Shown here piece after piece: positions 14,941-64,000 of a stretch of DNA of 64,000 nucleotides. Location of the stretch: the IMG/VR virus record IMGVR_UViG_3300042350_004191, positions 62,001-126,000 of that record; one strand, given 5' to 3'. Both the position numbers and the translations under genes were made by a program. The notes beneath the pieces were generated by a model that saw only the letters and a list, made by a program, of their open reading frames with translations, was not told where the DNA came from and did not search any database. This DNA comes from a virus. How positions within the stretch are numbered: the first letter of the stretch is position 1; each line of letters begins with the position of its first letter.

Positions 14941-17900
14941 ATGATTATCCTAACATCAGACCATATTTTAAATACAGAGGGATATGTTAATACAACTGAT
15001 TTTACAGTAACTGTTGGCAATCTTCCAGCCAACACATTTATAAACTATATAGAATATATATGGGGAGATAATACAAAAAAAAGATATACACCAACAGGTG
15101 GTTCAATTTTATTTACAACACCCATAATAGAAGTTAAAAAATATAATGGAACTGGTGTTTTTAATTTAAAAGTTATAGTAAGCTATACTCGCAACAATAA
15201 AAGAGATACTTTAACAGCAAATTATAATATAAGAATAAAACCTATACCAAATGAAATATATCTTACAACTACAACCACAAGAAGTTCTGCTTCTAAACTT
15301 TATGCAAGAATTACAAGATTTAATTTCATCCCCAATCCTGAAATATTTGGACAAAATTTAGAAAATTTAAAATATGTTCAATGGGATTTAGGTAATGGTG
15401 TTTTATCAAACCGACCACGACTTATAGGAGCTACGTTCAATGAACCGGGTGTGTTTGTTGTGAGAATGTTAGCATATACAAAAGGAAACGACAAATATGT
15501 ATATGAAAGGACCTTTACAATTCAAGAATATTTAAATGATTCTATAAGATTTTCAAAAGTACCTCCTCCAACATATGCTGGACATTTAAATCGTTTTCCT
15601 TTTGAAATAGAGATTACATCACCAATAAACGAACCACATATTGTTGATTTGTATGCACAATTTTCACGGTCCTATCCCACTTTAGACAATCCAACAAAAT
15701 ATTCATTTTTAAGACCTGAATGGAGATTTTTAGATTTGAGATTGAATGTTATAAAAAGCGTTCAAACAGTAAACAATAGACCTATAAGAGTAAACGAATT
15801 TGGTGAAGAAGTTCCAGAAGGTGGTATAATTGCGGGATATAGAGGTACTGCACAGTTTTACTTTGTAGATGATTGGTTTAATCAAGATCAGGTTCTTACA
15901 AAAGAACAATATACTACTTTATGGGTTACTTTAAGAAGTAATAATATAAGAAATAATAAAACCACAGACAATATTGATGGATTACATCCCGGTCATGCAA
16001 ACAATACTGCACAAGCATGGTGTCCATATGTAACTCTTTGGAGAAAACCAGATACAATTAAATTTACAAGAAACGGTGCCAATCCTTTACCTGTTGTACA
16101 GTTTGTGGGATCAGACGTTCCTATAACATTTACCATAGGTTATAACAATCCTACTGTCCCAGATATTCACAACAGACAAGCAAGACTAACGTTAGCAGAT
16201 ACAATAGGTGGGTTTGCTCATTATGTACCACATTATGATACAAGCTTATTGTTGGATGTTAATACCAATTCATTTAATAATAATTTAAGTTCATTTTTAA
16301 AACCAAGACAACAACCTTATATTAGCTACAGAAATTCAGATAACTTGTTGTCTGGTGGTTATTATAAAACAACATATGAGAGATTGAATTCTACTACATT
16401 AACTATGTCTGCAAACATTGTTGTACCGGAACCAGACTTGAGAGCTAACAATTTCAATCCTCATATATGGTTACTGAATCCAAGTAATGCAGAAATAAAT
16501 GTGGCCCAATACATTTATACTACAAATAATATAATAAACAGTCCACAATATTTTAAAACAGATTCAATTACAAATTATAATGAATTGTTCAAAAAAGACA
16601 GAATGCCTATACCTACAGTTAGGAAAAATCCAAATATGGACACTGTATTTTTATATAAATTTACAAGTGAAAGAAAAATAAATCCACACATATCTAGTCC
16701 ATTAGATGAAAAATCTCATTTGAGCGGTTTACATACAGTAGCTGCATTAAATGCACCGACATATCATGCTTGGGTTAGTGATATAGAAAATAATAAAATT
16801 TACAGAGTAACTAGTGATGGTAGAATTTATTTAACTATAGATTTAAAAAATTTAAATTATAATTTTGGAACAGTTGAAAAGTTAATTCCATTAACAATGG
16901 TTGTTGATAAGGACTTAAATCTGTTTGTTGGGTTAGCAGGATCGAATCAAATTTTAAAATTTGATGATAGTGCTAATTTAAGAGCGGTTTTAAATTTAAA
17001 CAACGTAATCCCTATATCTTTAGATGTAGATAAAAATAACAACCTTTATATAAGTGGAATAAGAAAAAACCAAACTCAAGAAAGTATTTTATTAAAATAT
17101 AACAATTCTCTTTCAAATTTGCTTTTATCAAAAACATATTCAAATATTTTCTTAGGTAATATTTTAGTAAGCCCATTTGATACAATATTTGTAATAAATA
17201 ACGGTCATTTAGATAAAAACCTAAAAGAAGTTTATAGTATAAATTCTTTTATAGAAGAACTTAATATCAACAATTTTAATTTGATTAAAAATTATAGTTC
17301 TCAACCATTTATAAAATATATGACCTTAGATAGAGGTGGGTCTTTATATTACAATTTTTCCTTTAATAGTATATGTAAAATAAAAAGAGACGGAAGAAGC
17401 CAAGTTACTAGTTTATTGTCAGATAATTCTTCTGATAATGACAGTAGTAACAGAGTTATAGAAGGTTTGGGTTATAATATCAATGACAAGATCTACGTAA
17501 TTAATTCATTAGATAATAAAGTAACAATTTTAGATTTAAATTTAAATGTTGAGCGTTTCTTTTACATAAATCCATCAAAAATCGAATATGAACTCGACAC
17601 TTTTGGCCAAATAAAAGATCCTTTAGTCAGAATTAAATCTAAAAAAAGATCATTAAAAGCCAACGGAGATTTCACTGGTTGGTTATGGAATTATAAATTT
17701 GGAGTTAAAAATAACCGAGAAAGTTTTTCAATAACTAATAGATCTAATACTTTGTCCTTTAAACAACACAATCAGTTTAAATTTTTTGGAAAAAATGAAG
17801 TTTTTGATATTGGAAAATATATGTATGATTTTAGTTTTATGAAATCATTAAAGGAAAGTCCATTTCTTTATAATAATAAATTTTATGATACTGAAGTTCA

Positions 17901-19176
17901 GCAAGAAGTTGTTAGAAATAGTATTGAACAACTACAACCATTACAGAGGCAATTAAATACATTATTAAATAATAACGATTTTTCTAATCCAGAGCTAATA
18001 GATGCTTTACAGCGTGAAATTGATAAATTTACTGATGACCTAAGAGAAGTTGAGTTAACAACTACTAATAAAAAAGGTTTTTTTGGATCAATATTTGGAA
18101 CATTTCCATACCAACCAGACGATTTAGGCGTTTCCACCTTTTCAAAAATAGCCAATTTTACAGAAAAGACCGCAGACCCCGATACATGTGATGTTCCACA
18201 CTTATATGATATCATGAAAAAAATTGATTTTAATGATGAAAGTTATCGTATAAGATTTCCAAACGGAATAAACAGAATAATAGATTATACATCTATTTCT
18301 CCATACAAATTAATGGGTACAAAGTGTGGTTGTGGAAATGATAATTTTAAATTAAATGAGTATCAAATAGGCACTTGTTCTTTTTGTGGGCGAGAAATTA
18401 TTTCTAATAGAGGCGATGAAATTAAAAATCCCGAAGAAATAATTTATTCAGGAAATTTTGTAGTATTAAAAAATAAAACAAATGATAAATTTAGAAAAGT
18501 TCAAACAGGACCTCTTGATGGAGAAAATTCATATACTATTACAAAATTAGCTACATCTATAGGACTACCTACAGGCTGGATGGTTAATTATGCTTTTTAC
18601 AAATACCAAGAAAAACCAAACGATTTTATTGAAACTGGTTTAATAAACATTAACACATTTAATTTAAATCAAGCCAATACTATTAAAAATATAGCTTCTT
18701 ATTTTAATTTAAATAATACTTTTGTGTCTCCAGTTTCAACATATGTCTATGCTTTAACTACAAACATCAATATAGGAACTACTAATACAAATGAATGGTC
18801 GAACAATTTAAATTTATTACCAAACAGAACAATATTAAACTTTACCAGTTCTTTAAATTTAACATTATCGTCTATGTCGTATGTTTGGGAAACTTCCTCA
18901 TTTGTTAACTTTAACGATTATGAATTTTTAACTTCAAATATATTTAATATACCAAATTATAAAAAAGGATTAACATTTACAAATACAACAAGTTCAATAT
19001 CTTATAAAAGATATATCGAATTAGATAAAAAATATAGAGTCGAAAATAATATAGATTGGGATCAAACACAAACCACAGTTCCATTAATGAAATCTGAAAA
19101 TGCATGGTATGGTCAAAATGGAATTTTAGAAACTATGATAAATTTTGAATTACAGAAAGGTTTGGGTTTAATTTAA
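14941..19176 (+). CDS. Giant baseplate/tail protein with PKD-like, propeller-like and zinc-ribbon modules
   Basis: This 1411-residue protein occupies the gp7 position after gp25 and gp6. I see two PKD-like beta-sandwiches (about 1-105, YIEYIWGDN; about 115-200, YVQWDLGNG, then PGVFVVRMLAY). An NHL-like propeller follows (about 595-885), with repeats such as VSDIENNKIYRVTSDGRI and VVDKDLNLFVGLAGSNQILKF. Then come a GDFTGWLWNYKFG motif (about 908), a short coiled coil (about 985-1040) and a Cys4 ribbon (CGCG, then CSFC, about 1127-1152). It is probably part of the baseplate periphery; gp7 homology is positional only. Confidence 0.6.
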   Translation: MIILTSDHILNTEGYVNTTDFTVTVGNLPANTFINYIEYIWGDNTKKRYTPTGGSILFTTPIIEVKKYNGTGVFNLKVIVSYTRNNKRDTLTANYNIRIKPIPNEIYLTTTTTRSSASKLYARITRFNFIPNPEIFGQNLENLKYVQWDLGNGVLSNRPRLIGATFNEPGVFVVRMLAYTKGNDKYVYERTFTIQEYLNDSIRFSKVPPPTYAGHLNRFPFEIEITSPINEPHIVDLYAQFSRSYPTLDNPTKYSFLRPEWRFLDLRLNVIKSVQTVNNRPIRVNEFGEEVPEGGIIAGYRGTAQFYFVDDWFNQDQVLTKEQYTTLWVTLRSNNIRNNKTTDNIDGLHPGHANNTAQAWCPYVTLWRKPDTIKFTRNGANPLPVVQFVGSDVPITFTIGYNNPTVPDIHNRQARLTLADTIGGFAHYVPHYDTSLLLDVNTNSFNNNLSSFLKPRQQPYISYRNSDNLLSGGYYKTTYERLNSTTLTMSANIVVPEPDLRANNFNPHIWLLNPSNAEINVAQYIYTTNNIINSPQYFKTDSITNYNELFKKDRMPIPTVRKNPNMDTVFLYKFTSERKINPHISSPLDEKSHLSGLHTVAALNAPTYHAWVSDIENNKIYRVTSDGRIYLTIDLKNLNYNFGTVEKLIPLTMVVDKDLNLFVGLAGSNQILKFDDSANLRAVLNLNNVIPISLDVDKNNNLYISGIRKNQTQESILLKYNNSLSNLLLSKTYSNIFLGNILVSPFDTIFVINNGHLDKNLKEVYSINSFIEELNINNFNLIKNYSSQPFIKYMTLDRGGSLYYNFSFNSICKIKRDGRSQVTSLLSDNSSDNDSSNRVIEGLGYNINDKIYVINSLDNKVTILDLNLNVERFFYINPSKIEYELDTFGQIKDPLVRIKSKKRSLKANGDFTGWLWNYKFGVKNNRESFSITNRSNTLSFKQHNQFKFFGKNEVFDIGKYMYDFSFMKSLKESPFLYNNKFYDTEVQQEVVRNSIEQLQPLQRQLNTLLNNNDFSNPELIDALQREIDKFTDDLREVELTTTNKKGFFGSIFGTFPYQPDDLGVSTFSKIANFTEKTADPDTCDVPHLYDIMKKIDFNDESYRIRFPNGINRIIDYTSISPYKLMGTKCGCGNDNFKLNEYQIGTCSFCGREIISNRGDEIKNPEEIIYSGNFVVLKNKTNDKFRKVQTGPLDGENSYTITKLATSIGLPTGWMVNYAFYKYQEKPNDFIETGLININTFNLNQANTIKNIASYFNLNNTFVSPVSTYVYALTTNINIGTTNTNEWSNNLNLLPNRTILNFTSSLNLTLSSMSYVWETSSFVNFNDYEFLTSNIFNIPNYKKGLTFTNTTSSISYKRYIELDKKYRVENNIDWDQTQTTVPLMKSENAWYGQNGILETMINFELQKGLGLI

Positions 19177-19205
19177 GATATATCTGAATAATTATATAGA
19201 ACTAA

Positions 19206-22200
19206 ATGAACCCATATAGTGTATCGGCAATAGGCATTTGGCCCAACGAAAAATATCTGTACAAAATAGATCCTTCTATTATTGATTTCAGATATGGCGT
19301 ATTGCCTATGACTGTATTTTCTTCTCCGCAATTATCAGAAGACAATAATTTTGCTGTAATAGACTACAATAAACCGGATTTTAACAGTAATTTAATCGGA
19401 ATAAGTTCGAATGCAGGATATATCTATACTGATAGTGATGGTTTTTTTAAATCTTTCTTAACACCTAATTTGACTTTTTCATGGACTCCTTCGGCATTAA
19501 GAACCGGAAACTATGGAAATATGTTAAATGCTATTTTATTAAATACTAGTGATTGGAAATATTTCACGGTAGTTTCATACCCTTCAGAGTTATTTTTATA
19601 CCCAGTCGAAATATCTAAAATAGATAATGTGGCAAGATATGAAACAGATATAACTTCTTTATCGGTTTATACAATATCCGAGCTATTATCTACCTATTCT
19701 AATATAGAAACCATGAGTTCAGCAGGTTTAACTGCTACCGAACTTCAAACGCCGCTTATTTCGTCTATCAATTATGCTATTAGTTCTTTAAACAGTTTAG
19801 AAACAACTTTAGACATCGTATGGTATAATGCGGTTTCTTCTGGAGAAGTCACTACTAATTTTAAATTTATTAGTTCTGTAACAACAGATTTTTTTGGACA
19901 GTCTTTATCAACATTTTCTTATGTTACATTAGAGAATGTAATATGTTCTTATTATATAAACATAGATAATTTTATTGTAGATTACAATACCATAACTACA
20001 TTAGAAAATTATGTATCTAGTGTAACATTTTTAGATAAAATAACAGCAATAGATTATAAAACTTTTTTTGAAATAGCTACTTCCAGAAGTTATGCTTTAC
20101 AAACTTCTTCTATATTATTAAAACCTTACGATTTTCAATTTCTTTCCAAAAACGAGTACGCCACAACAATAAAAACTAAACACAGTGATTATTTGTCAAG
20201 AATTCCAGAAGCATTACCACTAAATGACAATAATCTCAAAACTATTTCTTATACTTTATCGGGGGCATTAGTTAATTGTAATAAAAGTTTAATAAATTTC
20301 ACAGAAACTAATAATCCTATTTATGGAAACTTTATATTAGAAGACGAAGGCGCAAATATAAGACCAGAAACAGTAAAAATTGCATATAAAATTCATTATG
20401 CAAATATGAACTCAACAAGAGAACCTAAAGAAATAACAAGTTTAGGTGATTTGTATGATGATATGTTTTTAGATTCAGATAGGTCTATCGAATCTTCTTA
20501 TATTGTTAGTAAAAATAATAATAAACTAACATTTCAATTATTACAATCAGCATTGAATTTAATCTTACCATTAGAACACCCAACAAACTGTGTATTGAGT
20601 GCTATTTTAGATTTAGACAAATGTACATTAGAATATGTAAACCAAAGATTTCCCACTTTCAATGCAATATATAATGATTTTACTCCGATATCAGGGTTTC
20701 CCGGCACTGACTTGTCTGTTCGTTACATAGCCGATAGTCCCGTTGATAACCAAAAGAAATCATTAGAAACGACTGTTTTGAACATATCCAGTAATTACGG
20801 AAATTTTTCATTAAATTCAGCAGTATCTTGTAAATCTGACAATCATGTTATTAATTGGACATTAGAATATCCACCATATTATTATAGTTTTAAAAATACA
20901 TTTGTAGACAAAAATAACAGAACATATTCAAATGTAAATTCTTTGGGCTTTTATCTATCTTCAGAAGTATTTTTTAATGAAATAATAAAACCCAACCCTA
21001 ATGATTTCACAGAAGACTATGCAAGAATAGATTTATACACAAGCGTTTATTCCGATTTTGATATTATTCAACTCCCTCTGTCACTATATGCAATTGATGA
21101 TTATATCAAATATGAATTAGTATATAGAGATCAAACTTTATTTTTAAACAACTTGTCAGCATTTTTAGTTTTACAAGAAGACAGAAGCGAAGTTTTGTCG
21201 TTTTCTTCTACTTTAATTCCTAATAGTAATTTTGTACCATATGATATAATCAATTCACCATATGTTCCTGCGGTTTCTGGTGTTTTTCTAAGACTAATTT
21301 ATAACTTAGACAATGGTGGCGCAGTATTTTCTGTTAAACCTTCTTTGTCAACAAAGATCGGTGCATTCGATGCTTTTTGGGGTACTACATTTTCAAGTGG
21401 TATAACATATAAACCAAGAAACTTTGTTAAAAATCCTCCTTTAGACACTATTGCTAAAACTATTACCAGTGCTACATTTTCTGTAGAATCTTTAACAGGT
21501 ATAGATATTTTTGGTCCAGATCTAAGGAATACAAACGTAAGATGGGATTATAAAAGTAATGGATCGAATCATTTAAAATTAATTAATAGAACCAAAGGAG
21601 ATATAGGAATTTTTACAGAAATTGTACCAAACAGTTCTTACCTTTTTAATGTGGCTAATGTCGTAGAACTAACTGGACTGAGTAATGAAACTGTAGATGT
21701 AACTTTTTATTCTGAAGAATATAATGTCAGTTCTACCAGAATAGTCTTGCCAGAATTGTTTGATTTGTATTATGAAAACAGAGTAAACATAAATTTTGAA
21801 CCTATAACCTTAAAAGAAAAAATCAAAATATTAAAATGCGATATAAGTGTGCCATTTTTCGGCAAAAATTTTAATATAACTGGCTCAGAGAGGATAAAAT
21901 GGAATTGGATATATGATAATATTACAAACCCAGATCTAGCTCCAGTAACAGCGTTTTATTTGAATAACAATAATCTAGTAACTTATGATATAGATACTAT
22001 AGGTCTAGCAACACTTAGTACATTATATTTTTATATAGACACAAACTACACAATAGTAGAAGAGTTAAATCCTTTAAGTGCTTTTGTCGAAGTCTATAGT
22101 TTAGGCGAAGTTTATTCTGGTAAAAATGTTTTTGATGTTAATTCATATCCAGATCCAACTATTTTTAGTACAGATTTTTATGTAACATATCCTAACTTTC

Positions 22201-24266
22201 CTTCATATCAATTGATCAATACAGATAGTAATATTAAATCTTTAACAAGACCACCCAACGGAACTAATATATACAACATCACTCCTTTTGAACTTAAAAC
22301 CAGAAATGTTTCAATTAGTGGAATGAATTGGAAAATTAAAAGAACAGTTTTAAATTCGTTTAGCAATACTCTTTCAACAAACGAAGAAGAATTGTCCTTA
22401 ACTCCGAATGCTTCTGGTTTTTATGATGATATTATCTTAAACAGAGATTATAATTTATACAACATAACTTCTAAAAAATATTATAATAATGAAATTTTTA
22501 CAAGTAATTCTCCATTAGTATTTTCGTCCTTACCAATTACTAATATTACTGATCTTTTAAACTTAAGTTCATATTTAATTTTACCAGATTTAATAACCAA
22601 TAATGTTTTTGTAACAAATATAACTGCTACAGAAAATATCTCACCATTAGCTACATCTATAAATTTTATAACAACATCGTATTATATAACATCGTTTGAT
22701 GTTGTAGATAGTATTGATATAGTTAAAAATTTAAACAATCTTTATACATATTCATTTTATACTTCCACCAATTTTATTAATATAAATAATCAACCTGTTG
22801 AATATACTATTTTTAATGTAAACTATTGGTTATCAGCAAATTATACTATAAAAACTGATAAACAAACTGAAATTGATGCTTTTAGTTCTTTGTACATAAA
22901 TCCCAACTTAAATAATTTTCTTTCATATAATTCAGTTATCAATCCAACTACAACAGTCGAATATGATGTTACTAAAAAAGAAATAGAAAAAAATTTATAT
23001 GCAATATATGATATTTCTTTAAATGCCGAAAGTGTTAGTATTCCTAACTGGACAAACTTATACGACTTTTCAAAGTCTGGACAGATTATTGTAGCAACCG
23101 ACACAGAATTTATTACTTTACCAAAATTAATTTTGACACCAAATTTTGTTTGGGTTCCTCAATGGAAATCACCTAATTTTTCTAAATTATCAAATAAGTT
23201 TGTCACTGTACTTTCTGGCTACAATCCCAATAACATTTTTCAGTTTTTGACAGGAAAAACTTATGGAAACAGGAAAGATAATTTTCAAGAATATAATGTG
23301 ATTGTTCAAGATGTTCAAGAATTCAAAATAAACAAATTACAAGATTCTATAACAATATTTTTAGGCGCAGGTTCTAATAATGAATTTATACAAGATCAAA
23401 TAATTGATCGACCAGAAGAATATCGTTTTACTGATAATGGAGAAAAAACTATATTAATTGAAAATTTCAGAATTCCAATAAAACCAGAAATATATAGCAC
23501 TGATGGTATGGTTGTTTATCTAACAGCATATAATAAATTTTTTCCCACTACTGGCGGTTTACAATATTATGGGTTGAATTCATTAACCGCAACAGAATTA
23601 ACACTTTTTAACTATCCTATAACAGCAAGAACTTTAAACAAAGACATAGCTTGGGATAATGAAAAACCAACTGAGTTTGAAATAGACAATTTCTTATTCG
23701 ATGCTGTATATCATAATCCAAAACTTTTTGAGTATGAAAAAGCAAAATTGTTATTCTATCCTAATATTATAAACATTAATTTGGATACTGAAAGATTGAT
23801 TCAAGTCAAACAAATTCTGGAAATAAATCCTTTAGAATCTCCTAATGAGATTGAGGTAGATAAAAGTACAGTTACATATGAATTAAAATCTGATTACTGG
23901 TCTGTTTCATCTGTTGTTCCTGCTGTATCAAATAGATACTTTGATTTGTTTAGATTAACTGTGGGGGATTCTACAATTCCATTAACTGTTTCAAACTTTG
24001 AAAGAAGTACATTATTTTTAAGTGCTACTGCAAATATAGCTACTAAAATACCTCCAATGACTTTTAATAGAACAGCCTCAAGTCAATATACAGGACCAAC
24101 CGATTTATGGAATACAGTATATCAAAAAGCAATAGGAAATGAAGAAACACCGTCTGAACAGTATAAAATCTTATTTTCAGAGGTAAATAGTCTTAGTACT
24201 TCAACCGGAACGGTCAGTACATATAATACACTTGCTATTAATGATAATTTAATTTTGACAACATGA
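19206..24266 (+). CDS. Giant tail/baseplate structural protein
   Basis: At 1686 residues this is the largest complete gene in the window. It is Ser/Thr/Asn/Tyr-rich and appears all-beta. A recurring module is visible: IDIFGPDLRNTNVRWDY and later VPFFGKNFN followed by KWNWIYDN. Both resemble a segment of the upstream giant protein (PEIFGQNLENLKYVQWDLGNG), so the two proteins share a beta-domain type. No enzyme motif or transmembrane segment is seen. It is expressed between the wedge genes and a fibre gene and ends with an ATGA overlap, so it is almost certainly a virion tail component. The exact role is unknown. Confidence 0.55.
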   Translation: MNPYSVSAIGIWPNEKYLYKIDPSIIDFRYGVLPMTVFSSPQLSEDNNFAVIDYNKPDFNSNLIGISSNAGYIYTDSDGFFKSFLTPNLTFSWTPSALRTGNYGNMLNAILLNTSDWKYFTVVSYPSELFLYPVEISKIDNVARYETDITSLSVYTISELLSTYSNIETMSSAGLTATELQTPLISSINYAISSLNSLETTLDIVWYNAVSSGEVTTNFKFISSVTTDFFGQSLSTFSYVTLENVICSYYINIDNFIVDYNTITTLENYVSSVTFLDKITAIDYKTFFEIATSRSYALQTSSILLKPYDFQFLSKNEYATTIKTKHSDYLSRIPEALPLNDNNLKTISYTLSGALVNCNKSLINFTETNNPIYGNFILEDEGANIRPETVKIAYKIHYANMNSTREPKEITSLGDLYDDMFLDSDRSIESSYIVSKNNNKLTFQLLQSALNLILPLEHPTNCVLSAILDLDKCTLEYVNQRFPTFNAIYNDFTPISGFPGTDLSVRYIADSPVDNQKKSLETTVLNISSNYGNFSLNSAVSCKSDNHVINWTLEYPPYYYSFKNTFVDKNNRTYSNVNSLGFYLSSEVFFNEIIKPNPNDFTEDYARIDLYTSVYSDFDIIQLPLSLYAIDDYIKYELVYRDQTLFLNNLSAFLVLQEDRSEVLSFSSTLIPNSNFVPYDIINSPYVPAVSGVFLRLIYNLDNGGAVFSVKPSLSTKIGAFDAFWGTTFSSGITYKPRNFVKNPPLDTIAKTITSATFSVESLTGIDIFGPDLRNTNVRWDYKSNGSNHLKLINRTKGDIGIFTEIVPNSSYLFNVANVVELTGLSNETVDVTFYSEEYNVSSTRIVLPELFDLYYENRVNINFEPITLKEKIKILKCDISVPFFGKNFNITGSERIKWNWIYDNITNPDLAPVTAFYLNNNNLVTYDIDTIGLATLSTLYFYIDTNYTIVEELNPLSAFVEVYSLGEVYSGKNVFDVNSYPDPTIFSTDFYVTYPNFPSYQLINTDSNIKSLTRPPNGTNIYNITPFELKTRNVSISGMNWKIKRTVLNSFSNTLSTNEEELSLTPNASGFYDDIILNRDYNLYNITSKKYYNNEIFTSNSPLVFSSLPITNITDLLNLSSYLILPDLITNNVFVTNITATENISPLATSINFITTSYYITSFDVVDSIDIVKNLNNLYTYSFYTSTNFININNQPVEYTIFNVNYWLSANYTIKTDKQTEIDAFSSLYINPNLNNFLSYNSVINPTTTVEYDVTKKEIEKNLYAIYDISLNAESVSIPNWTNLYDFSKSGQIIVATDTEFITLPKLILTPNFVWVPQWKSPNFSKLSNKFVTVLSGYNPNNIFQFLTGKTYGNRKDNFQEYNVIVQDVQEFKINKLQDSITIFLGAGSNNEFIQDQIIDRPEEYRFTDNGEKTILIENFRIPIKPEIYSTDGMVVYLTAYNKFFPTTGGLQYYGLNSLTATELTLFNYPITARTLNKDIAWDNEKPTEFEIDNFLFDAVYHNPKLFEYEKAKLLFYPNIININLDTERLIQVKQILEINPLESPNEIEVDKSTVTYELKSDYWSVSSVVPAVSNRYFDLFRLTVGDSTIPLTVSNFERSTLFLSATANIATKIPPMTFNRTASSQYTGPTDLWNTVYQKAIGNEETPSEQYKILFSEVNSLSTSTGTVSTYNTLAINDNLILTT

Positions 24267-27136
24267 GCGATTTTTTTCCCATACAAATTAGACACTTAGA
24301 AAGTTTATCAGAACCTATTTGTAGTTCTGATGTTTTTCCTTTACAAATAGGAAATTTAATTGATGGCTTTGAAACCAGAGCATCTAAAATGTCTGATGTT
24401 CTTAGTTATGTAAATTTACAAAATCAAAATACTAATATTTCCAATTTAAATGTTTCAAATTCTGCTGTTGTCAGTAATCTTTTATATATCGGAAACGTAA
24501 ACGAAATAAATGGTGTTAAATTTTACGTAGACGGAAATGCGATTATTAGTGGAACATTAAGTGCTCTTAGTGGTATTACATATTTCAACACAAATATTGC
24601 ACAAACTACTGCTTTGTTTTTATCAGGTGCTTCTGGTGTAGGATTGAAAGTTACGCAAGATTTTGAATTTCCGATTGCTCAATTTTATGATTCTAACAAC
24701 ATAGCTTTGCATGTTGATGGTACGTCTGAACGCGCAGGGAACGTAGGTATTAAAACTGTTGTTCCAAATGAATCTTTAACCGTTATAGGTAATATAAGCT
24801 CTACAGGTACAGTTTTTGGGGAGGGATTGAGTGCCAATACTGGTTACGTTAATTATCTTAGCTCTTACAATTTACATGTAATTGGCAGTGCTATCCTTGA
24901 CTCTGAAACGAATTCTAGCCTTACTATAGGAAATCTAGTATCGTCAAAAACAACAATATACGGTGATGTTTTTATTAACGCAGTAACTGCGGCCAGTTCT
25001 TACAATACATACATAGGAAATGTTAATTCAGATGTTTACGTTAATGGTTATCTTTTTACAAAAAATTTATCATCTGGTGGAAACATTTTTATCAATAATA
25101 TTAATGGCGAAAATTCTCAGTTTAATTTAGGAAATCCTGATGCCGTAAACAATATAACTGGAACTACTATCTTGAGTGGTAATGTTTATATAGATGGTAA
25201 CATTGTTTTAAATGGTGGTGATAATGACAATACTTTTATAAATTCTAACGGTAATAAAGGAAAAGTTTATATAGGAAATCCTGAAAATTCTTCTGAAATA
25301 AATTCTAGTTTATTAACACATAACGCAAATTTAACAAGCGAATTATTTGTTTCAAATTACACTGATTTTGATGCTTTAACCTCTAATATAGATACTTTAT
25401 ATGATGATTTTTCAATTGTTTATTTAGTATCTGCTGTCAATTTATTAAATCCCAGTATAACTAGTGTACAATACAAATACGTTGAAAATGTAGAAGGTTT
25501 AAAAATAGATTTAAATAACAAAAATATTAATTTAGGAAAATCTAATTTTGCTACAAACATAAATGGTAATGTAATAAACTCAAAAGCTGGATTACTTTTA
25601 AATTTATATACTTTATCTGGAGGTCAGGTAAAGATAGGTGATCAAAATAACACTGTAGACTTACGTGGGTTTAATTTAAGAATTAATGATTCTGGTGATG
25701 GTGTTACTAAAAATACTTACATAAACACAGAGTTAGATTCTGGTAACATAGAAATTGGAAATCCTTTAAATTTTACAGGTATTAATGGTTTTAATACACA
25801 TATCAATACTCTTTCCGCTGGTGAAACTGTTATAGGGAATGTCAGTGGAAGTGTTAAAGTATATAACCTTACTATATTAAATTCATTATCATCTTTGGTC
25901 GATACATTTAACGTTTCTAACGTAAATTCTCAAAATATTATTGTATCAAACACATCGAGTCTTAATAATACAAACATAGGTGGAACATTAAATACAACAG
26001 GCGATGCTTTATTTGTAAATCGTGTCGGTGTTGGTGTTCCTCCGCAAGAAAAGCTAACTGTATCAGGGAATATATCTGCTTCTGGTTTTGTATCTGCAAA
26101 TACATTATCTTTAAATAACATTAACCAAAACACTTTGACTGTTACTGGAAACACCTCTAGTTATGGTTCAACAACAATATACAATGAAAGTAATAATCCT
26201 GCCTTAAAAATTACACACACTGGTTCTGGTAATGTATTAGAAATTGAAGACCAAACTGAGGATACAACAATCTTTAGGATTAAAGAAGATGGTAAAATTA
26301 TTGCAGGAACCGCTGCTTTAAGTTCATTGTTTAATGAAGGTCTTTTTAATTTGGTTTCAGATAATAGAGCAATTAATACATATAAATTTGGAAATAATAA
26401 TACATCAGGTTCTTTTTATAATTATAAAACCAGAGGCAATAATGAAAATGAACATGTAATTTTAAATGCTGGTGATTTTACATCAGTTTGGGAAGCTCAT
26501 GTTTCCAATGGTTTAACATATATAGCAAATTCCAGAATAGATGCACGAATCGATCCAAATTATCAAACAACAGCATCATCGATGCCGTCCAGAATTAATT
26601 TTTATACAACCTCACCCAATACAACAAGTAGAGATATAAAGTTTTTGATAGATAGCACCGGAAATGTTGGTATAGGAACAAACGTACAAACAGTAACAGC
26701 CGCTCCTAATGAAAAATTGACTGTTGTTGGTAATATTTCTGCTACAGGTAAAGTTTATTCTGATAACGGAAATTCAGATATATGGAATCAACCAAGCATA
26801 AATTTAGTATTACCTATAACACAAGATGCACAGGTTATATCATCTGGTGATGGTGTTTTTACATTATATTCACCACAAACCTTCAGATTAACCAAAGCCA
26901 AGGTAAGTCTAAATATTCCATCAGAGAATACAGTAACAGCCACATTAAGTTCTATTACAAACAACCAATCTATAACAACCTTAACTTTACCAGCAAATAC
27001 TGGTTTTGTTGCAACAGATTCAAATTTATCTTATTTAATAAACGAAGATGACAGAATTACTTTGAATATAAACAGTGTCGGAACCGGATTTAACGGGGCT
27101 GGTTTAAAGATATATTTAACAGGTCGGTACGTATAA
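24263..27136 (+). CDS. Long tail fibre-like protein
   Basis: The 957-residue protein begins MSDFFPIQIRHLESL and then SSDVFPLQIGNL, a docking-tag-like start. The shaft contains repeated fibre motifs: NESLTVIGNISSTGTVF, EKLTVSGNISASGF and NEKLTVVGNISATGKV, together with several IGNPxNxxxINGxx units. NVGIGTN precedes the last of these, as in many trimeric phage fibres. The C-terminal about 100 residues are a compact beta-domain (LPITQDAQVIS to LKIYLTGRYV) likely to be the receptor-binding tip. The start overlaps the upstream stop by ATGA. It is probably a major long fibre. Confidence 0.75.
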   Translation: MSDFFPIQIRHLESLSEPICSSDVFPLQIGNLIDGFETRASKMSDVLSYVNLQNQNTNISNLNVSNSAVVSNLLYIGNVNEINGVKFYVDGNAIISGTLSALSGITYFNTNIAQTTALFLSGASGVGLKVTQDFEFPIAQFYDSNNIALHVDGTSERAGNVGIKTVVPNESLTVIGNISSTGTVFGEGLSANTGYVNYLSSYNLHVIGSAILDSETNSSLTIGNLVSSKTTIYGDVFINAVTAASSYNTYIGNVNSDVYVNGYLFTKNLSSGGNIFINNINGENSQFNLGNPDAVNNITGTTILSGNVYIDGNIVLNGGDNDNTFINSNGNKGKVYIGNPENSSEINSSLLTHNANLTSELFVSNYTDFDALTSNIDTLYDDFSIVYLVSAVNLLNPSITSVQYKYVENVEGLKIDLNNKNINLGKSNFATNINGNVINSKAGLLLNLYTLSGGQVKIGDQNNTVDLRGFNLRINDSGDGVTKNTYINTELDSGNIEIGNPLNFTGINGFNTHINTLSAGETVIGNVSGSVKVYNLTILNSLSSLVDTFNVSNVNSQNIIVSNTSSLNNTNIGGTLNTTGDALFVNRVGVGVPPQEKLTVSGNISASGFVSANTLSLNNINQNTLTVTGNTSSYGSTTIYNESNNPALKITHTGSGNVLEIEDQTEDTTIFRIKEDGKIIAGTAALSSLFNEGLFNLVSDNRAINTYKFGNNNTSGSFYNYKTRGNNENEHVILNAGDFTSVWEAHVSNGLTYIANSRIDARIDPNYQTTASSMPSRINFYTTSPNTTSRDIKFLIDSTGNVGIGTNVQTVTAAPNEKLTVVGNISATGKVYSDNGNSDIWNQPSINLVLPITQDAQVISSGDGVFTLYSPQTFRLTKAKVSLNIPSENTVTATLSSITNNQSITTLTLPANTGFVATDSNLSYLINEDDRITLNINSVGTGFNGAGLKIYLTGRYV

Positions 27137-41789: not shown

Positions 41790-43661
41790 ATGAAAAAAGT
41801 AGGGACTGTATTATTAATAACTCGTTATGGTGGTTTGGGTGATCTCATAATGATGCTTCCGACCATCAAGGCTCTAAAAGAAAAACATAATAATTGTAAA
41901 ATAGTTCTTCGAACATACAAGGATTATGAAAATTTCATAAAAGAATCCCCATTAATTGATCAAGTAGTATTAGATGATAATGGCTATAATCTGTTTACTA
42001 CACACGAAGGAGTTTTTTCTTTAAAAGAAGATAACGCTTTTGCAAGTAAAGATCAAAAAGTCATTCATTACAATTTCCAAGGAGTTATAGAAAACCGTAA
42101 AGACGTTCATGGTGTAATTGCGTTTGCAGAACATGCTAAAGTAAATGTTGTTTTTGATGGAAGTTATGAAAAAAACCTTTTGAATTGGTATGATAGAAAT
42201 AGCGAAAGTCCGTCAATTGTGGTTCAATTAAGAAACGTGGGAGATGGGAGAGATTTAACTATAAAGGATTTACCTTACGAAGAACTTTTAAAAAATAATG
42301 CATATTTTATAGATAAAATTATACCAGATAAAGATTATTTGAACCTAATTGCAAATAGTAAAATTTTTGTTGGTACAAATTCTTCAGGTTTACCTATTGC
42401 TGCCGCAACTCATGTGCCTTGTATGTTTATTTTGTTTAATGAAGAATTTCCTCCTTCAATACGAAGTTACAATGGAGTTTATAATTATACAAATACAAAG
42501 GAACTATCCGCCGATTTATCAAAATATCTTTTAAAAGATTGTCATTACAAGAAGATTGGGTTGTCGATGATAGTTAAAAATGAATCCAGAGTCATTAAAA
42601 GATGTTTGGATAGTGTAAAACCATTGGTTGATTATGTTTGTATATCAGATACGGGTTCAACAGATAATACAATCGAAATAATTGAACAATGGTTAAAAGA
42701 AAACAGTATAAAAGGTGAAGTAAATCGAGAAAAATGGGAAAATTTTGCCTCTAATAGAAGTAAATCATTAGAAAATCTCAGAAAACATAAAGACATTGAC
42801 TATACATTGGTTATAGATGCAGATGAGATATTAAAATTTGATGATAATTTCGATTATTTTAAATTTAAAACTAGTTTAACAGCGGATTTATATAATATTA
42901 CTTGTAAATTTGGTAGTATTGAATATGCAAGGACAAATTTATTCAAAAATTCCAAAAATTTTTATTATAAATGTGTTTTACACGAATATCTGGAATGTTA
43001 TGAGCCTATTTTAAGTCGAGACACTGCAAAAGGCGTATATAATATCCCAATTCAAGATTCTGCCCGAAATACAGATGTTCAAAAATATCAAAATGATGCT
43101 AAATTATTAGAGGAAGCATTAAAAACGGAAAAAGATCCTTATTTAATTCAAAGATATACCTTTTATCTTGCTCAATCGTATAAAGATTGTGAGCAAAATG
43201 GTAAAGCGATCTATTGGTATAACAAAAGAGCCGAATTAGGTGGTTGGGATCAAGAAGTATATTGGTCTTTGTATCAGGTAGCTCGATTAAAAGAAATCAT
43301 GGGCTATCCCGAAGATGATATTGTCCAAAGTTATCTTCGTGCTTATGAAAAATGTACTTCCAGAATCGAAGCATTGCATAATGCTATTAAATTTTGCAGA
43401 ACACATGGTAGAGATCATCAAGCATATATGATTGGAAAATATGCCAAATCATTACCAGTTGATAAAACTGGACTATTTGTAGAAACTTGGATGATAGATT
43501 ATGCTTTAGATGATGAATTTTCTATTGCCTGTTATTGGTCAGGTCACTATGCAGAGGGATTAAAGGTTTCTGAAGAATTAATCAACAAAATACCAGAAGA
43601 TCAAAAACCTAGAATACAACAAAATATACAATTCTTTAAAGAAAAATTACTCGTAAAATGA
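41790..43661 (+). CDS. Fused glycosyltransferase: GT9-like, GT2 and TPR-like regions
   Basis: In this 623-residue protein, residues 1-250 are GT9-like (LLITRYGGLGDLIMMLPTIK, then LIANSKIFVGTNSSGLPIAAA). Residues about 254-350 are a GT2 nucleotide-sugar domain (IGLSMIVKNESRVIKRCLDS, ISDTGSTDNTIEII, and the metal-binding DAD in VIDADEIL). The remainder is helical, with TPR-like pairs (YTFYLAQSYKDCEQNGKAIY, SLYQVARLKEIMGYPEDD). The GT9 part is shorter than the stand-alone enzyme at 40247, so it may be an acceptor-binding rather than catalytic region. Together with its neighbours it suggests a phage-encoded glycan-modification module. Confidence 0.78.
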   Translation: MKKVGTVLLITRYGGLGDLIMMLPTIKALKEKHNNCKIVLRTYKDYENFIKESPLIDQVVLDDNGYNLFTTHEGVFSLKEDNAFASKDQKVIHYNFQGVIENRKDVHGVIAFAEHAKVNVVFDGSYEKNLLNWYDRNSESPSIVVQLRNVGDGRDLTIKDLPYEELLKNNAYFIDKIIPDKDYLNLIANSKIFVGTNSSGLPIAAATHVPCMFILFNEEFPPSIRSYNGVYNYTNTKELSADLSKYLLKDCHYKKIGLSMIVKNESRVIKRCLDSVKPLVDYVCISDTGSTDNTIEIIEQWLKENSIKGEVNREKWENFASNRSKSLENLRKHKDIDYTLVIDADEILKFDDNFDYFKFKTSLTADLYNITCKFGSIEYARTNLFKNSKNFYYKCVLHEYLECYEPILSRDTAKGVYNIPIQDSARNTDVQKYQNDAKLLEEALKTEKDPYLIQRYTFYLAQSYKDCEQNGKAIYWYNKRAELGGWDQEVYWSLYQVARLKEIMGYPEDDIVQSYLRAYEKCTSRIEALHNAIKFCRTHGRDHQAYMIGKYAKSLPVDKTGLFVETWMIDYALDDEFSIACYWSGHYAEGLKVSEELINKIPEDQKPRIQQNIQFFKEKLLVK

Positions 43662-43857: not shown

Positions 43858-45925
<2,068 letters not shown>

Positions 45926-45927
45926 TA

Positions 45928-45937
45928 AATATTTATC
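45928..45937 (-). promoter_or_regulatory. T4-late-like promoter element for the collagen-like fibre
   Basis: On the minus strand GATAAATATT stands 16 bases upstream of the ATG at 45921. The predicted start site leaves about three bases of leader. Confidence 0.45.
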
Positions 45938-45945
45938 ATTTTTTC

Positions 45946-46284
45946 TTATAAATTATCTTTAATATAGATAACTCTATTAAGATGTTCTCCGTCTGAAAAT
46001 TTTATAAGAATTTCAGCATAGCCTTTGTCTAAATTGATACTAAAGTCTTCATAAGATTCACCTAGATTTTTTGATTCTAAATAAAGACTTTTTACTAAAT
46101 TAATGGCATCTTCGGTATGTAAATTTTCCGCTTTAATTGAGGTAAACCCTGAACTAGGATAAACTAGAGTATATCTTGAATTATCTAATTCTTCATTGTA
46201 ATTTAAATTTAATAAAGTTAAAGAATCTGTTTGTTTATCAAGATAAACATTTAAATACTGATCATATATTTCGACATTTTTCAT
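45946..46284 (-). CDS. Hypothetical protein downstream of the protease gene
   Basis: I place the start at the ATG at 46284, two bases after the protease stop. An in-frame TTG at 46314 would add ten residues overlapping the protease C-terminus. The 112 residues alternate short strands and helices (DQYLNVYLDKQTDSLTLLNL, EDAINLVKSLYLESKNL, YAEILIKFSDGEHLNRVIYI). No family is recognised. The tight arrangement with the protease suggests a partner, such as an inhibitor or substrate-binding companion, but nothing in the sequence proves it. Confidence 0.5.
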   Translation of the reverse strand: MKNVEIYDQYLNVYLDKQTDSLTLLNLNYNEELDNSRYTLVYPSSGFTSIKAENLHTEDAINLVKSLYLESKNLGESYEDFSINLDKGYAEILIKFSDGEHLNRVIYIKDNL

Positions 46285-46286
46285 AA

Positions 46287-47510
46287 TTAAATTACTGTTA
46301 AACCAGTTTGCCAATATCTTTTATTTCCTTCGTCAACATATGGCAAATCTGATTTTCCTTCTACATACTTAACTCTTTCTTTCCCTAAATCAGTCAAAGC
46401 TGTAGTTTGTCCATCCCACGACGATAATTGTAATGTTGAACAAATATTATCGATTCTACAAGCATATGATGGACTATTATCTCCTAAATCTGAACCAGCA
46501 AAAGTTAAACCAACCACTTTCCATGCGCTTAAAGATTGGCTTTCTGGATTTATTAAAGCACAAACAGCACTTCCAGAATCTCCACCGCTACTAGCAACAG
46601 TAAATGTTCCTCTATAAGTTAAACATGATGTAAAATTTAAAATATTTCCACTAAAATTAACACCTACAGAAACTCCGACTTGAGTAGCAGTAAGAGAACA
46701 CGATTCAGAACCCCAAGGTATAGAACCTGGCCATCCCACAGGACCAGTTGTTGCACCTGATTTAAAAATTGGATTTTTATTTATGACCAAATTATCAATT
46801 TCAGAGGTAGTGGCAAATTCAAGATTTCCATAATTTAAATTTAATTGTTTAAAAGATGTAAGTGTGTTTACTCTACTTGAATTTGTTATTGCTACAACGG
46901 CTGCATCAATTGTGTTCCCACTTGCTAAAAGCGGAACATACCTTTTTAATTTCATTGTAGATTGATTTGACCAAGGGAAAGCTTGGTATACTGTTGTTTG
47001 TCTATTGCTAAAACTTGAAGACAATAAAGATGCGTCTCTTTCTGTATAAGCAGCAACGTGTGCATTTGTTAATGCAACAAGAGTATTGTCGGTGAGATCT
47101 TTACAGATAAGTCCCATAGTTCCTGTAAATGCACTGTTTCCTAAATTTAATGGATTATCTATTGATATTCTTGTTCCACCGATATATGTTGTTCGAGATG
47201 ATCTATGTAATGAAACGGGTTCAACTGAATCACTAATTTCATAGCAAGATGGGTATGCAACAGCTTGTGGTATTTGAATAACATCAGTAGTAAAAATACT
47301 ACCATCTTCTGTTGTTATTGTTGATGGTAAAATTTCATTTTGTGGAATAGATGATAATGGTTTTTTTTCTGTAACACCAAAAACTATAGAAAGTTCGTTT
47401 GTTAATTTTCCATCAACTTCTTTAAATCCATAACCAACCGAATGAACATATTCTGGAGTTTCTTGTAAAAGCTTTTGTGTAAGCTTTTCTATATTTTCAA
47501 TATTATTCAT
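46287..47510 (-). CDS. Chymotrypsin-like serine protease in the adhesin cassette
   Basis: The chosen ATG at 47510 gives 407 residues; a TTG three codons earlier is possible. The complete S1-type triad is visible: His151 in VALTNAHVAA, Asp202 in GNTIDAAVVAI and Ser312 in SSGGDSGSAV (the GDSGS signature). The N-terminal 60 residues (VHSVGYGFKEVDGKLTNEL, SIVFGVTEKKP) match the leader domain of bacterial trypsin-like proteases. No signal peptide is seen, so it is probably cytoplasmic or a virion component rather than exported. Sitting between fibre genes, it might process fibres or cut host surface proteins. Confidence 0.82.
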   Translation of the reverse strand: MNNIENIEKLTQKLLQETPEYVHSVGYGFKEVDGKLTNELSIVFGVTEKKPLSSIPQNEILPSTITTEDGSIFTTDVIQIPQAVAYPSCYEISDSVEPVSLHRSSRTTYIGGTRISIDNPLNLGNSAFTGTMGLICKDLTDNTLVALTNAHVAAYTERDASLLSSSFSNRQTTVYQAFPWSNQSTMKLKRYVPLLASGNTIDAAVVAITNSSRVNTLTSFKQLNLNYGNLEFATTSEIDNLVINKNPIFKSGATTGPVGWPGSIPWGSESCSLTATQVGVSVGVNFSGNILNFTSCLTYRGTFTVASSGGDSGSAVCALINPESQSLSAWKVVGLTFAGSDLGDNSPSYACRIDNICSTLQLSSWDGQTTALTDLGKERVKYVEGKSDLPYVDEGNKRYWQTGLTVI

Positions 47511-48212
47511 ACGATACAAATGTTGTATATGTTGAAGATGGTATTGTGCTTACAGGTTCATCTATTCTATAAACTTTTATGCCATTAAAATATAAATCAT
47601 TAACAGTTGCTGGTGTTGGATCTGTTCCAGAAATATAAAATTTAAAACCTCTAATATTACTATAACCGTTACGTGTTATATCATTTTCAGTATAAGTTGT
47701 TGAATTTAAAGTTACTGAATAACTATAAGAATTTAAATTAGTTTTTTTCAAAACTATTCTTGCTACCATTGTTGGTGAATAATCTTGTCCTGTGCTTATT
47801 CCATTTATAATATAATTTCCTGCTCCTCCACCACCAACATTAAAATTAAAAACTTCTTGGGACCATTCTGTATCACTGTAAGCACTAAACCCCTTATTTC
47901 CGTTTCTAAAATTTACAGATATTGCTGCGGATAATGCATAACCTACCGACAAACTTGATGGTAAGTTTCTTTTTAAATCTATAAAACTTCCCGCTGGATT
48001 TCCATATGCCCCAAAAGATACTCCATTTGTATCTATTAAATTACCGAATGATTGCCCTATAAATGCACCAGCCGTACCGTTTGATGTAAAATCCCATGCA
48101 TTGAAACCATAACCAAAATTAGATGCTCCAATAAAAGATCCTCCATAGTTATTGGCTCTATCTTCACCAATAACAGAATTCGATCCTGCTAAAGATCCTA
48201 AAAATGTTCTCA

Positions 48213-48213
<1 letters not shown>
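47503..48213 (-). CDS. Adhesin-like protein
   Basis: Start at the ATG 48213, which overlaps the upstream stop; an in-frame ATG nine codons further upstream lies inside the preceding gene. The 236 residues begin MRTFLGSLAGSNSVIGEDRA and contain Gly-, Asn- and Ser-rich segments (GGSFIGASNFGYGFNAWDF, VFNFNVGGGGAGNYIINGIS) and a beta-like C-terminal half (GYSNIRGFKFYISGTDP). It looks like a receptor-binding or accessory fibre protein. No known family. The end overlaps the protease start by eight bases. Confidence 0.55.
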
Positions 48214-50933
<2,720 letters not shown>

Positions 50934-60729: not shown

Positions 60730-60745
60730 GATAAATATAAATAAT
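60730..60745 (+). promoter_or_regulatory. Late-promoter element of the giant beta-roll gene
   Basis: GATAAATATAAATAAT, identical to 56920-56935, contains the exact TATAAATA box at 60736-60743. The ATG of the giant gene follows at 60755. Confidence 0.5.
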
Positions 60746-60754
60746 CTATCCAAT

Positions 60755-63700
60755 ATGCAATATATAAGTACCGAAGGTTTATTAATCGATACAGTAAACA
60801 AAGAAGCAAGAATTTTAGGAGTTACTAATACTGTTAGTTCAAATTCTGTTGCTTTTTTAGGAGATAACAATAATACATCTTTTTCTAGTATATCTTTCGG
60901 CGGAACTAGTAATAGCTCTAATAACAATGCTTTAACGGTTGCTGGTTCAAACAACGTTGTGGATGGTTCTTTATCATTTGATAGTACTAGCAGTCAAATA
61001 TCTTCTGATTCAGTTGATTTTAAAAGTATAAACTTAAAATCTCAGGACGGTTCGGTTTCTTTTAAAACAAATTCTAGCAGTTTGACTGCAAGTTTAGGTA
61101 TACAAAGTTCAAACGATGCTATAAACAACAATTCTGCTGCAATTTTAAGTAGGAATAACAATATCAATAACTCTTCTGTTGCAATAAACAGCATTAATAA
61201 CACATTAAATTTAAGTTCTTTTAATGTTTTAACAACCAACAGCAATACAAGAGATAGATCTGCATTGTTTAATTCTCTTTCTACAACAGCATCTCTTTCA
61301 TCTGTTGGTATTTTAGCAAATTTTTCAAATATTCAAAATTCATCTGTTGTATTAAACTCTTTAAGCAGTAATACAAACAACAAATCTATAGAATTTTTAG
61401 GTAATAACAACACAGTTACACAAAATTCTTTAGGAATAAATTCAACAAATACTAATATAAACAACAATTCTGTTAGTATAGGGGGAACCAATAATTTTGT
61501 TTCCGTTAATTCATTAAACATCAATTCTTCAGCATCAAATATTACAAATCAATCAGAAGGATTGTTTTTAGATAGAACCACATTAGATAATAATTCTTTT
61601 AGTATTGGTGGTAGTGGAAATAACATAAGAAATTCTTCGATTGGTATCAATCCTTTAAGTTCTAACATACTTGAAAGCTCAGTAGGAATTTATACTGTAA
61701 GAAATACAGTAAACAATAAATCTTTTGCTGTAAATGCGGACACAACTACGGTCAACCTTAGTTCTTTAGGTATAAATGTATCTGAATCTAATATTAATAA
61801 TCAATCAGAAGGCATTTACTTAAACAAGACTAATGTAAACAATAATTCTATTGCTATAGGAAGTGATAGTATAAATGTTTCAGATCGTTCTTTTGTTTTA
61901 AATACAACAAATTCTAATGTATCTAGCAATTCTTATGGAGCTTTTACTAATAATACCAACCTAAACCTCAGTTCATTTGCGATTGGTGGTTTTAATAATA
62001 CGCTGGCAAACAGATCTTTCGGTATTAATTCAAATACATCCAACATATCTAGTAATTCTGTTGGGATTTATACTACAAATACAAATGTAAACCTTAGTTC
62101 ATTCGCAGTCGGTGGTCGGAATAATACTGTGGTGAATAATTCTTTTGGTTTGAATTCTTTAAATTCAAACATATCTGGTAATTCTGTAGGGATAAATGTA
62201 AATTCATCTAATTTACTATTGAGTTCATTAGGTATAAACTCTTTAAACAGTTCTATAACTTCAGGCTTTGCTCACAATTCAATTAGCGTACAATCCATAA
62301 GCTCTATAGCATTAAACACGACAAATTCTCAATTGAGCAGTTCTGTTATTGTAATAGGTAACAATAATGCAGTGAACAATTCAGTATTGTTTAATGGTAA
62401 TAACAATCTTACACAGGACAATTCGGTTGCGATTTCTTCTAATTCAAACAATCTAAGTGCAAATGCATTTTCTACATTATCAAATACTGTAACAGCAAGA
62501 AGAAATGCTACTGTTTTTAATTCTACAAACAGCGTAGTATCTTCGAATGCAATACAAATAAATGGTATTAATAACAATGTTGATAATAATAGTATTTCTA
62601 TTTTAGGAAGCACAAATACTATAACCTTAACCTCTGTTGGTATTGTTTCTGATGTTAGTAGAATCATTAACAACTCAACAAACATTAACAGTTTAAGAAA
62701 TATTGTTTCTGCAAGATCTGTTTCAATAAACACAGGTTCTACAACTTTGATAGATAAAGGAATTGCAATCGGTTCTTTAAATTCAAACGTATCTACTGGT
62801 TCTATAAGTTTTAATAGTAATAGCGTAATTTTACAATTAAGTGGTATAGATATATCTGGACGCAGTAATACTGTCCAAAATAGATCCACAAATATAAACG
62901 GAAGTAATAACACGGTCCAAAATGACAGTGCTACATTTAATACTATAAACAGTACAGCCTCTGCAAATTCACTAATCTTTGGTGGTGGCTTAAACAGATC
63001 AGTTATCAATTCACTTGTAATGAATTCAAGTGGTAGTAGAGCATCTGATGGTAGTTCTGTCATAGGTGGAAGATCTACTACCGCAAATTTAAGTTCTGCT
63101 GCAATTAATACATTCAATTCTCAAATAAATGGCATTAACTCTTTAGTTTTGGGTGGTAGTGGTCATAATTTTAGATCAGGAAATTCTGTATATTTAGGCG
63201 GTAAAGATAACGAAGCTGCTTCTACATACGGAGGAACTACCATTGGTGATAAATCTATAATTTTAGGTGGTGAAAAGGTTAGAATAGGATCTAATAGTAT
63301 TGCAGTTGGAGGACTAAACAACAATTTACAAAATGGTTCTATTACACTCGGTGGTAGTGGAAATGATACAGCATCTTTCAGTAATGTTGTTATTATAGGA
63401 AGAAACAACGTGACAGCAAACAGGGGTGACATAGTTTATCTTCCTGAAATTAATGCTTTGGGTAACTTAACAATCACAGGTAACGTATCCGCTTCTGGTA
63501 CATTTACAAATGTCAGTACTACCACAGGCACAGTTTCTTCTTTGGAATTAAATAACCTTTTATATCCTTTACATACTCTGGTTGTTAATCAAAACACACA
63601 AGCAGGAAATACTTTTGAAACTGCATTGTTTAGTTTTTACAACAACCCAAGAATGTCTGTTAACAACACTGGCGTTGCAATTAATACATTTGAAAGAACA

Positions 63701-64000
63701 ACCAATCCAAATCAAGCATTAACTGTTAAAGGTAATGTGTCTGCATCTGGAGGAATGAACCTTGAAGGAACATTAAATTTGGGTTTTGATACAAACTTGT
63801 ATCGTTCTGATACCAATGTTCTCAAAACAGATGACAATTTAAATGTTGGAATATTAGCAACAGGAAACACAGACAACGTAATAACACACAGTTCAAATAC
63901 ATTACAACAAAGAAATATAAATCCTAGAGCATGGGATACTACAGCGACTTTCTTGAGTGGTAGTCCAACAGTAAATCGTGTTGTTAAACTCACAAATACA
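60755..64000 (+). CDS. Giant beta-roll adhesin, 3' end beyond the window
   Basis: The frame from ATG 60755 stays open for 1082 codons to the window edge; I read every codon and found no stop. From about residue 25 to 890 it is a long run of 14-residue repeats of the form x-x-S-[VFIL]-x-[IVL]-[GN]-x-x-x-[NS]-[NT]-[VIL]-x (for example NNSFSIGGSGNNIR, SNSVGIYTTNTNVN), some 60 copies. This is the period and style of YadA-type trimeric beta-roll heads. After it come fibre motifs GNLTITGNVSASGTF and QALTVKGNVSASGG. Composition is dominated by Asn and Ser. It probably forms a long trimeric fibre; minus-strand frames here are shadows. Confidence 0.78.
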   Translation, partial: MQYISTEGLLIDTVNKEARILGVTNTVSSNSVAFLGDNNNTSFSSISFGGTSNSSNNNALTVAGSNNVVDGSLSFDSTSSQISSDSVDFKSINLKSQDGSVSFKTNSSSLTASLGIQSSNDAINNNSAAILSRNNNINNSSVAINSINNTLNLSSFNVLTTNSNTRDRSALFNSLSTTASLSSVGILANFSNIQNSSVVLNSLSSNTNNKSIEFLGNNNTVTQNSLGINSTNTNINNNSVSIGGTNNFVSVNSLNINSSASNITNQSEGLFLDRTTLDNNSFSIGGSGNNIRNSSIGINPLSSNILESSVGIYTVRNTVNNKSFAVNADTTTVNLSSLGINVSESNINNQSEGIYLNKTNVNNNSIAIGSDSINVSDRSFVLNTTNSNVSSNSYGAFTNNTNLNLSSFAIGGFNNTLANRSFGINSNTSNISSNSVGIYTTNTNVNLSSFAVGGRNNTVVNNSFGLNSLNSNISGNSVGINVNSSNLLLSSLGINSLNSSITSGFAHNSISVQSISSIALNTTNSQLSSSVIVIGNNNAVNNSVLFNGNNNLTQDNSVAISSNSNNLSANAFSTLSNTVTARRNATVFNSTNSVVSSNAIQINGINNNVDNNSISILGSTNTITLTSVGIVSDVSRIINNSTNINSLRNIVSARSVSINTGSTTLIDKGIAIGSLNSNVSTGSISFNSNSVILQLSGIDISGRSNTVQNRSTNINGSNNTVQNDSATFNTINSTASANSLIFGGGLNRSVINSLVMNSSGSRASDGSSVIGGRSTTANLSSAAINTFNSQINGINSLVLGGSGHNFRSGNSVYLGGKDNEAASTYGGTTIGDKSIILGGEKVRIGSNSIAVGGLNNNLQNGSITLGGSGNDTASFSNVVIIGRNNVTANRGDIVYLPEINALGNLTITGNVSASGTFTNVSTTTGTVSSLELNNLLYPLHTLVVNQNTQAGNTFETALFSFYNNPRMSVNNTGVAINTFERTTNPNQALTVKGNVSASGGMNLEGTLNLGFDTNLYRSDTNVLKTDDNLNVGILATGNTDNVITHSSNTLQQRNINPRAWDTTATFLSGSPTVNRVVKLTNT

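Follow-up and report, generated by a model that had tools for sequence, protein, structure and literature searches.

A very long, Asn/Ser-rich probable tail fibre gene with YadA-like 14-residue repeats and a C-terminal collar domain in a T4-like phage

The DNA analysed here (the window) is a stretch of 64,000 nucleotides corresponding to bases 62001-126000 of a parent virus record of 210,586 bases, and close to its 3' end a long frame, here termed the fibre gene, opens with an ATG on the plus strand (Table 1). The 1082 stop-free codons that an earlier note on this DNA had claimed are real and run from ATG 60755 to the end of the window, and the contig extension that the note proposed places the stop at record position 129384, 3.4 kb past the window end, which gives a protein of 2,209 aa with a collar domain at its C-terminus. 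An assembly error is unlikely and was set aside as an explanation, because a second contig holds the same sequence, being identical over 13.2 kb counted from the start codon and differing from the record at one position within the 8 kb upstream of it. In the ORF listing of the window the plus frame appears only when open ends are allowed, beside an antisense ORF of 262 aa (62329-63117), so the remark that ordinary gene finding would report shadow frames here was right. Neighbouring genes are T4-like and encode a major head protein, baseplate wedge, clamp loader, helicase, primase and sheath stabiliser; the first of these has 34% identity to its counterparts in cyanophages, P-SSM2 among them.

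Table 1. Features of the fibre locus, in window numbering unless given as residues (aa) of the fibre.
Feature	Position	Strand	Remarks
Upstream neighbour, 122 aa	60326..60694	-	Also precedes the fibre in L012 and L172
Late-promoter-like box, GATAAATA overlapping TATAAATA	60730..60743	+	Just 5' of the fibre gene
Fibre gene, 5' part	60755..64000	+	1082 codons; gene continues to window-equivalent 67384
N-terminal segment MQYISTEGLLIDT	60755..60793	+	Conserved in homologues; presumed virion-attachment end
Repeat region, predicted beta-roll shaft	60794..63424	+	About 58 layers, aa ~14-890
126-bp tandem unit, 2.3 copies, 73%	61901..62193	+	Three-layer (42-residue) duplication
Register slip in the repeat region	62258-62332 (aa 502-526)	+	
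Start of the spacer region	63437..64000	+	VYLPE..., LTVKGNVSASG and TNLYRS..TLKTDD modules
C-terminal collar tip	aa 2038-2209	+	Beyond the window, after the spacer region

A late-promoter-like element is present at the front of the gene, where one had been proposed. The TATAAATA box (60736-60743) lies 11 bases 5' of the fibre ATG, and although TATAAATA is not enriched across the window overall, [G/T]ATAAATA in this phage clusters 8-45 nt before ORF starts, with 10 sites for each form against about 0.3-0.5 expected for each, a naive expectation under which AT-rich intergenic sequence inflates the excess. The corresponding A and C forms account for 2 and 3 sites, respectively, compared with the 10 each of G and T. 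The fibre gene has both the G and the T form upstream, and GATAAATA is also found 5' of the fibre homologue in locus L012.

The repeats fill roughly the first 40% of the fibre, where 58 full layers of 14 residues were counted (aa ~14-890), in keeping with the 'about 60' first estimated. Residue identity at lag 14 is 0.110 above expectation, or 11 sd above shuffles (shuffle sd 0.010), and lags 28, 42 and 56 are also raised, with 28 and 42 reaching the level of lag 14 and 42 the highest of all. The register is nearly free of slips over aa ~14-501, slips at ~502-526 and is less regular from there to ~890. The exact 42-bp/14-residue rhythm that had been described stands at the protein level (lag 14) but not in the DNA, where the copies of the layers have mostly diverged and the only prominent tandem repeat is a 126-bp unit. 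Ser and Asn contribute 186 residues each to aa 1-950. In the BpaC numbering of layer positions, Ser occupies position 4 in 88% of layers and Asn or Gly position 8 in 57%, while hydrophobic residues are found at position 7 in 95% of layers and at positions 5 and 14 in 74% each. YadA-type beta-rolls are described as having Gly at position 8 and hydrophobic residues at 5 and 7, with residue 7/14 close to the threefold axis (PMC9543794). The fibre has the tandem layers of a YadA-type left-handed parallel beta-roll (LPBR) head (14 residues, within the usual 14-15) together with the positional signature of such heads (hydrophobic at 5 and 7, Gly at 8, an NSVAIG-like core motif), position 8 being Asn or Gly here. 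The TVKGNVSASG motif that had been noticed behind the repeats is present as one of about five LTVxG modules.

Pfam YadA_head (PF05658) has no match at E<=10, either with the whole fibre or with two of its repeat stretches, and we therefore call the fibre YadA-like and do not file it as a member of that family. Searches with Pfam, PHROGs and NCBIfam returned nothing on the repeats; the only domain matches on the fibre are Collar (PF07484; aa 2038-2100, E 1.2e-8, 35.3 bits vs a cut-off of 24) and PHROG 14307, which covers the same end. The C-terminus also matches the solved short tail fibre 9cuy (E 4e-14). The fibre ends, as gp12-like fibres of tailed phages do, in a Phage Tail Collar domain and not in the membrane anchor of a YadA-type (type Vc) autotransporter, for which no anchor family was found. 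Matches among named phages fall mainly within the last ~180 residues, and a BLAST search with the repeats found no named-phage match outside the C-terminal part, although its low-complexity filter may hide Asn/Ser-rich matches. No relative was found in the bacterial genomes searched.

Homologous loci were retrieved via the downstream endolysin and helicase and via the fibre itself, and yielded fibre homologues in L012/L173, L172, L094/L171 and L093/L174. The two that are complete at the N-terminus, L012 and L172, have MQYIxxEGLxIDT in common with the fibre, with MQYISSEGLFIDT in L012 and MQYIKTEGLLIDT in L172 standing against its MQYISTEGLLIDT. Both the number of layers and the tip vary among these relatives. 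Trained on aa 125-502, a repeat model counts 54 layers in the fibre, 34 in L012, 23 in L172 and 27 or more in L094, which is truncated; shuffles score 0-4 and six other fibres none. The collar of the fibre is replaced by a Peptidase_S74-type chaperone at the ends of L012, L094 and L172 (by Pfam for L012 and L094, by reading the sequence for L172). The fibre is 31% identical to that of L012, whereas three downstream neighbours are 82-88% identical, and because of this difference we regard the fibre locus as fast-evolving, as would be expected of a host-recognition locus.

In another locus, L063, from a related phage, the flanking genes are the same as at the fibre locus and the downstream ones are 49-68% identical. 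Two adjacent long fibre frames (L063 2027-5194 and 5188-8205) occupy the place of the fibre there. One of these frames has SHAEGxxTTASG repeats and matches Pfam YadA_head above the cut-off (E 9.6e-7), which ties the fibre locus to true YadA-type repeats although the fibre's own dialect goes unrecognised by Pfam. Profile comparison of the fibre with this YadA_head fibre gave no repeat match; with L176 the match was moderate (probability 79%). Phage loci L176 (6381-9326) and L114 (2-1576) contain frames with 15-residue GGGxxNxxTG-type repeats; both weakly match Pfam LbR_Ice_bind, the family of grass ice-binding beta-rolls, below its cut-off, and the L176 frame also weakly matches UspA1 repeats.

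Evidence on the fold comes mainly from aa 636-1022, modelled with AlphaFold2 as a single chain from an alignment of four sequences. Over aa 636-885 the model is confident (pLDDT 79-98) and forms a 14-residue beta-solenoid with strands every 14 residues, and the spacer part behind the roll is modelled unreliably. In a Foldseek search of the PDB the best adhesin by fold was the trimeric adhesin CbpF (probability 1.00, E 4.8e-5), with low TM-scores of 0.26/0.37; the left-handed helices of GlmU and LpxD were also matched, again with low TM-scores, and matches in a viral structure library include a phage baseplate protein. A PDB profile search with the same region placed the UspA1 head first (E 0.0036), and a second UspA1 entry followed at E 0.55. 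The profile of the Asn/Ser-rich repeats alone (42 columns) had no PDB match and was too variable for a scan of the collection. Together, the sequence and the predicted fold appear to support a YadA-type roll. The proposal of an Asn/Ser-rich YadA-like beta-roll fibre is supported by the period, the signature, the aa 636-885 model, UspA1, CbpF and the YadA_head fibre of L063, and is qualified by the right-handed matches of aa 1-560.

These matches raise the alternative that the repeats fold as a right-handed parallel beta-helix resembling Ag43 or P22-type tailspikes, in which case the gene would still be that of a tail fibre. The best match of the aa 1-560 model is indeed the right-handed autotransporter helix of Ag43 (probability 1.00), with tailspikes matched more weakly, but this model is weak (mean pLDDT 61, low over aa 16-135) and its TM-scores are about 0.2, whereas the confident model of aa 636-885 matches the CbpF roll and the left-handed GlmU and LpxD helices. 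Right-handed beta-helices usually have turns longer than 14 residues, and the positional signature and the UspA1 match likewise favour a YadA-type roll, so that we consider a right-handed helix unlikely. Less probable still is a monomeric left-handed beta-roll of the grass ice-binding (ice recrystallisation inhibition) type, whose flat polar surface would bind ice or a glycan. The Asn/Ser/Thr-rich surface would suit such a roll, the grass ice-binding protein 3ult appears as a weak profile match (E 2.4) and the 15-residue repeat frames of other phages approach the ice-binding family, but the trimeric adhesin UspA1 is a far better match, and the collar that ends the fibre and the S74 domain that ends its relatives are both components of trimeric phage fibres. 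That the region is a low-complexity linker, periodic in appearance only and with no defined fold, is very improbable, since its Asn and Ser content (372/950 residues) and the low pLDDT over aa 16-135 are outweighed by the strictness of the 14-residue register and its position-specific hydrophobics, which exceed those of shuffles by far, by conservation of the register in homologues and by the confident model of aa 636-885.

The YadA-like beta-roll has several counterparts among known proteins. One is the C-terminal head of BpaC, a trimeric autotransporter adhesin of Burkholderia pseudomallei, which likewise stacks many 14-residue layers (42 predicted), with a super-repeat of three layers and many polar residues, and whose roll rises by 4.8 A per layer (PMC9543794). 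The fibre differs from BpaC in its ~58 layers, in being hydrophobic at 5 and 7, in lacking an autotransporter anchor and in being encoded by a tail gene of a phage and ending in a collar tip. The heads of the trimeric adhesins UspA1 and CbpF (PDB 3ntn, 3pr7, 9gh4), its best profile and best adhesin-fold matches, belong in contrast to bacterial outer-membrane adhesins, have low TM-scores to the fibre model and, in UspA1, consist mostly of 15-residue layers. T4 gp12-type short tail fibres and other collar fibres resemble the fibre in their C-terminal collar domain and ending, but only the last ~180 residues are common to them and they are without a beta-roll shaft.

The earlier note called this architecture one usually associated with bacterial trimeric autotransporters, and the novelty suggested by that is overstated. 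Among named phages, similarity to L063 led, among others, to the tail spike protein of Flavobacterium phage immuto and the tail fibre of Verrucomicrobia phage P8625, which, with L063, have 14-residue YadA-type repeats like those of the fibre (in immuto the Pfam YadA_head match is 17 bits, below the curated cut-off of 25). Unlike the fibre, these proteins have SHAEGxxTTASG-type repeats, are much shorter (634-1053 aa) and are not picked up by the repeat model of Asn/Ser-rich layers. Phage proteins named YadA have also been described in cyanophages and pelagiphages (PMC9146016, PMC6224464, PMC3909814, PMC7029224). Because phage YadA-type fibres have already been reported, we regard the fibre as belonging to a known type, in a new variant that is long and rich in Asn and Ser.

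The 'YadA domain-containing structural protein' of cyanophage S-TIM4, a structural protein of a T4-like phage that has been linked to host adaptation, is similarly giant, at about 2,235 aa (PMC6224464). It was ruled out as the same thing as the fibre, since it has no 14-residue layers by reading or by the repeat model, no YadA_head match, and a start that matches Mtd_N. For this protein (ORF108, L178:35210-41917) the 'YadA domain' label looks unsupported.

We consider it probable that the gene encodes a tail fibre of a T4-like phage, composed of a beta-roll shaft, probably a trimer, followed by spacers and a host-contacting collar tip. The protein would be part of the virion, attached by its short conserved N-terminus, and ~58 stacked 14-residue turns would form a stiff parallel beta-roll shaft, probably trimeric and left-handed, with the hydrophobic residues at 5, 7 and 14 in its core. 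If stacked like BpaC, at ~0.48 nm per turn, the 58 layers would span roughly 28 nm. Behind the shaft would follow the spacer modules and then the C-terminal tip, and it is more likely that this collar or S74 tip, rather than the roll, is the receptor-binding end. Differences in layer number and tip among relatives would change reach and host range. A more speculative possibility, which we put forward tentatively, is that such fibres form a distinct Asn/Ser-rich YadA-type branch in a group of large T4-like phages, with more than the 42 layers of BpaC, whose adjustable shaft may be tuned by gain and loss of three-layer units under a swappable tip.

The locus would present the layout of a trimeric-adhesin head in the role of a very long shaft of a phage fibre, in a dialect that Pfam misses. 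Its homologues (at least three), with their differing layer numbers and tips, offer a natural series in which fibre length and tip could be set against host range. Our data also point to under-annotation of such shafts among phages, while these repeats are missing from at least one cyanophage protein named 'YadA'.

Other genes of the same phage deserve mention. A 957-aa protein (window 24263-27136) has the LTVxGNISxxG spacer modules of the fibre and may be another fibre or baseplate protein that shares them. A cluster on the minus strand at 43858-49682 includes proteins resembling tail fibres (PHROG families for tail fibre and collagen-like proteins), and within the structural region a 623-aa protein (41790-43661) combines a family 2 glycosyltransferase domain with a weak match to pyruvyl-transferase. 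Elsewhere in the genome of the fibre phage, two frames (L009:12348-15011 and 15004-19209) encode proteins with collagen-like GxTGxTG repeats.
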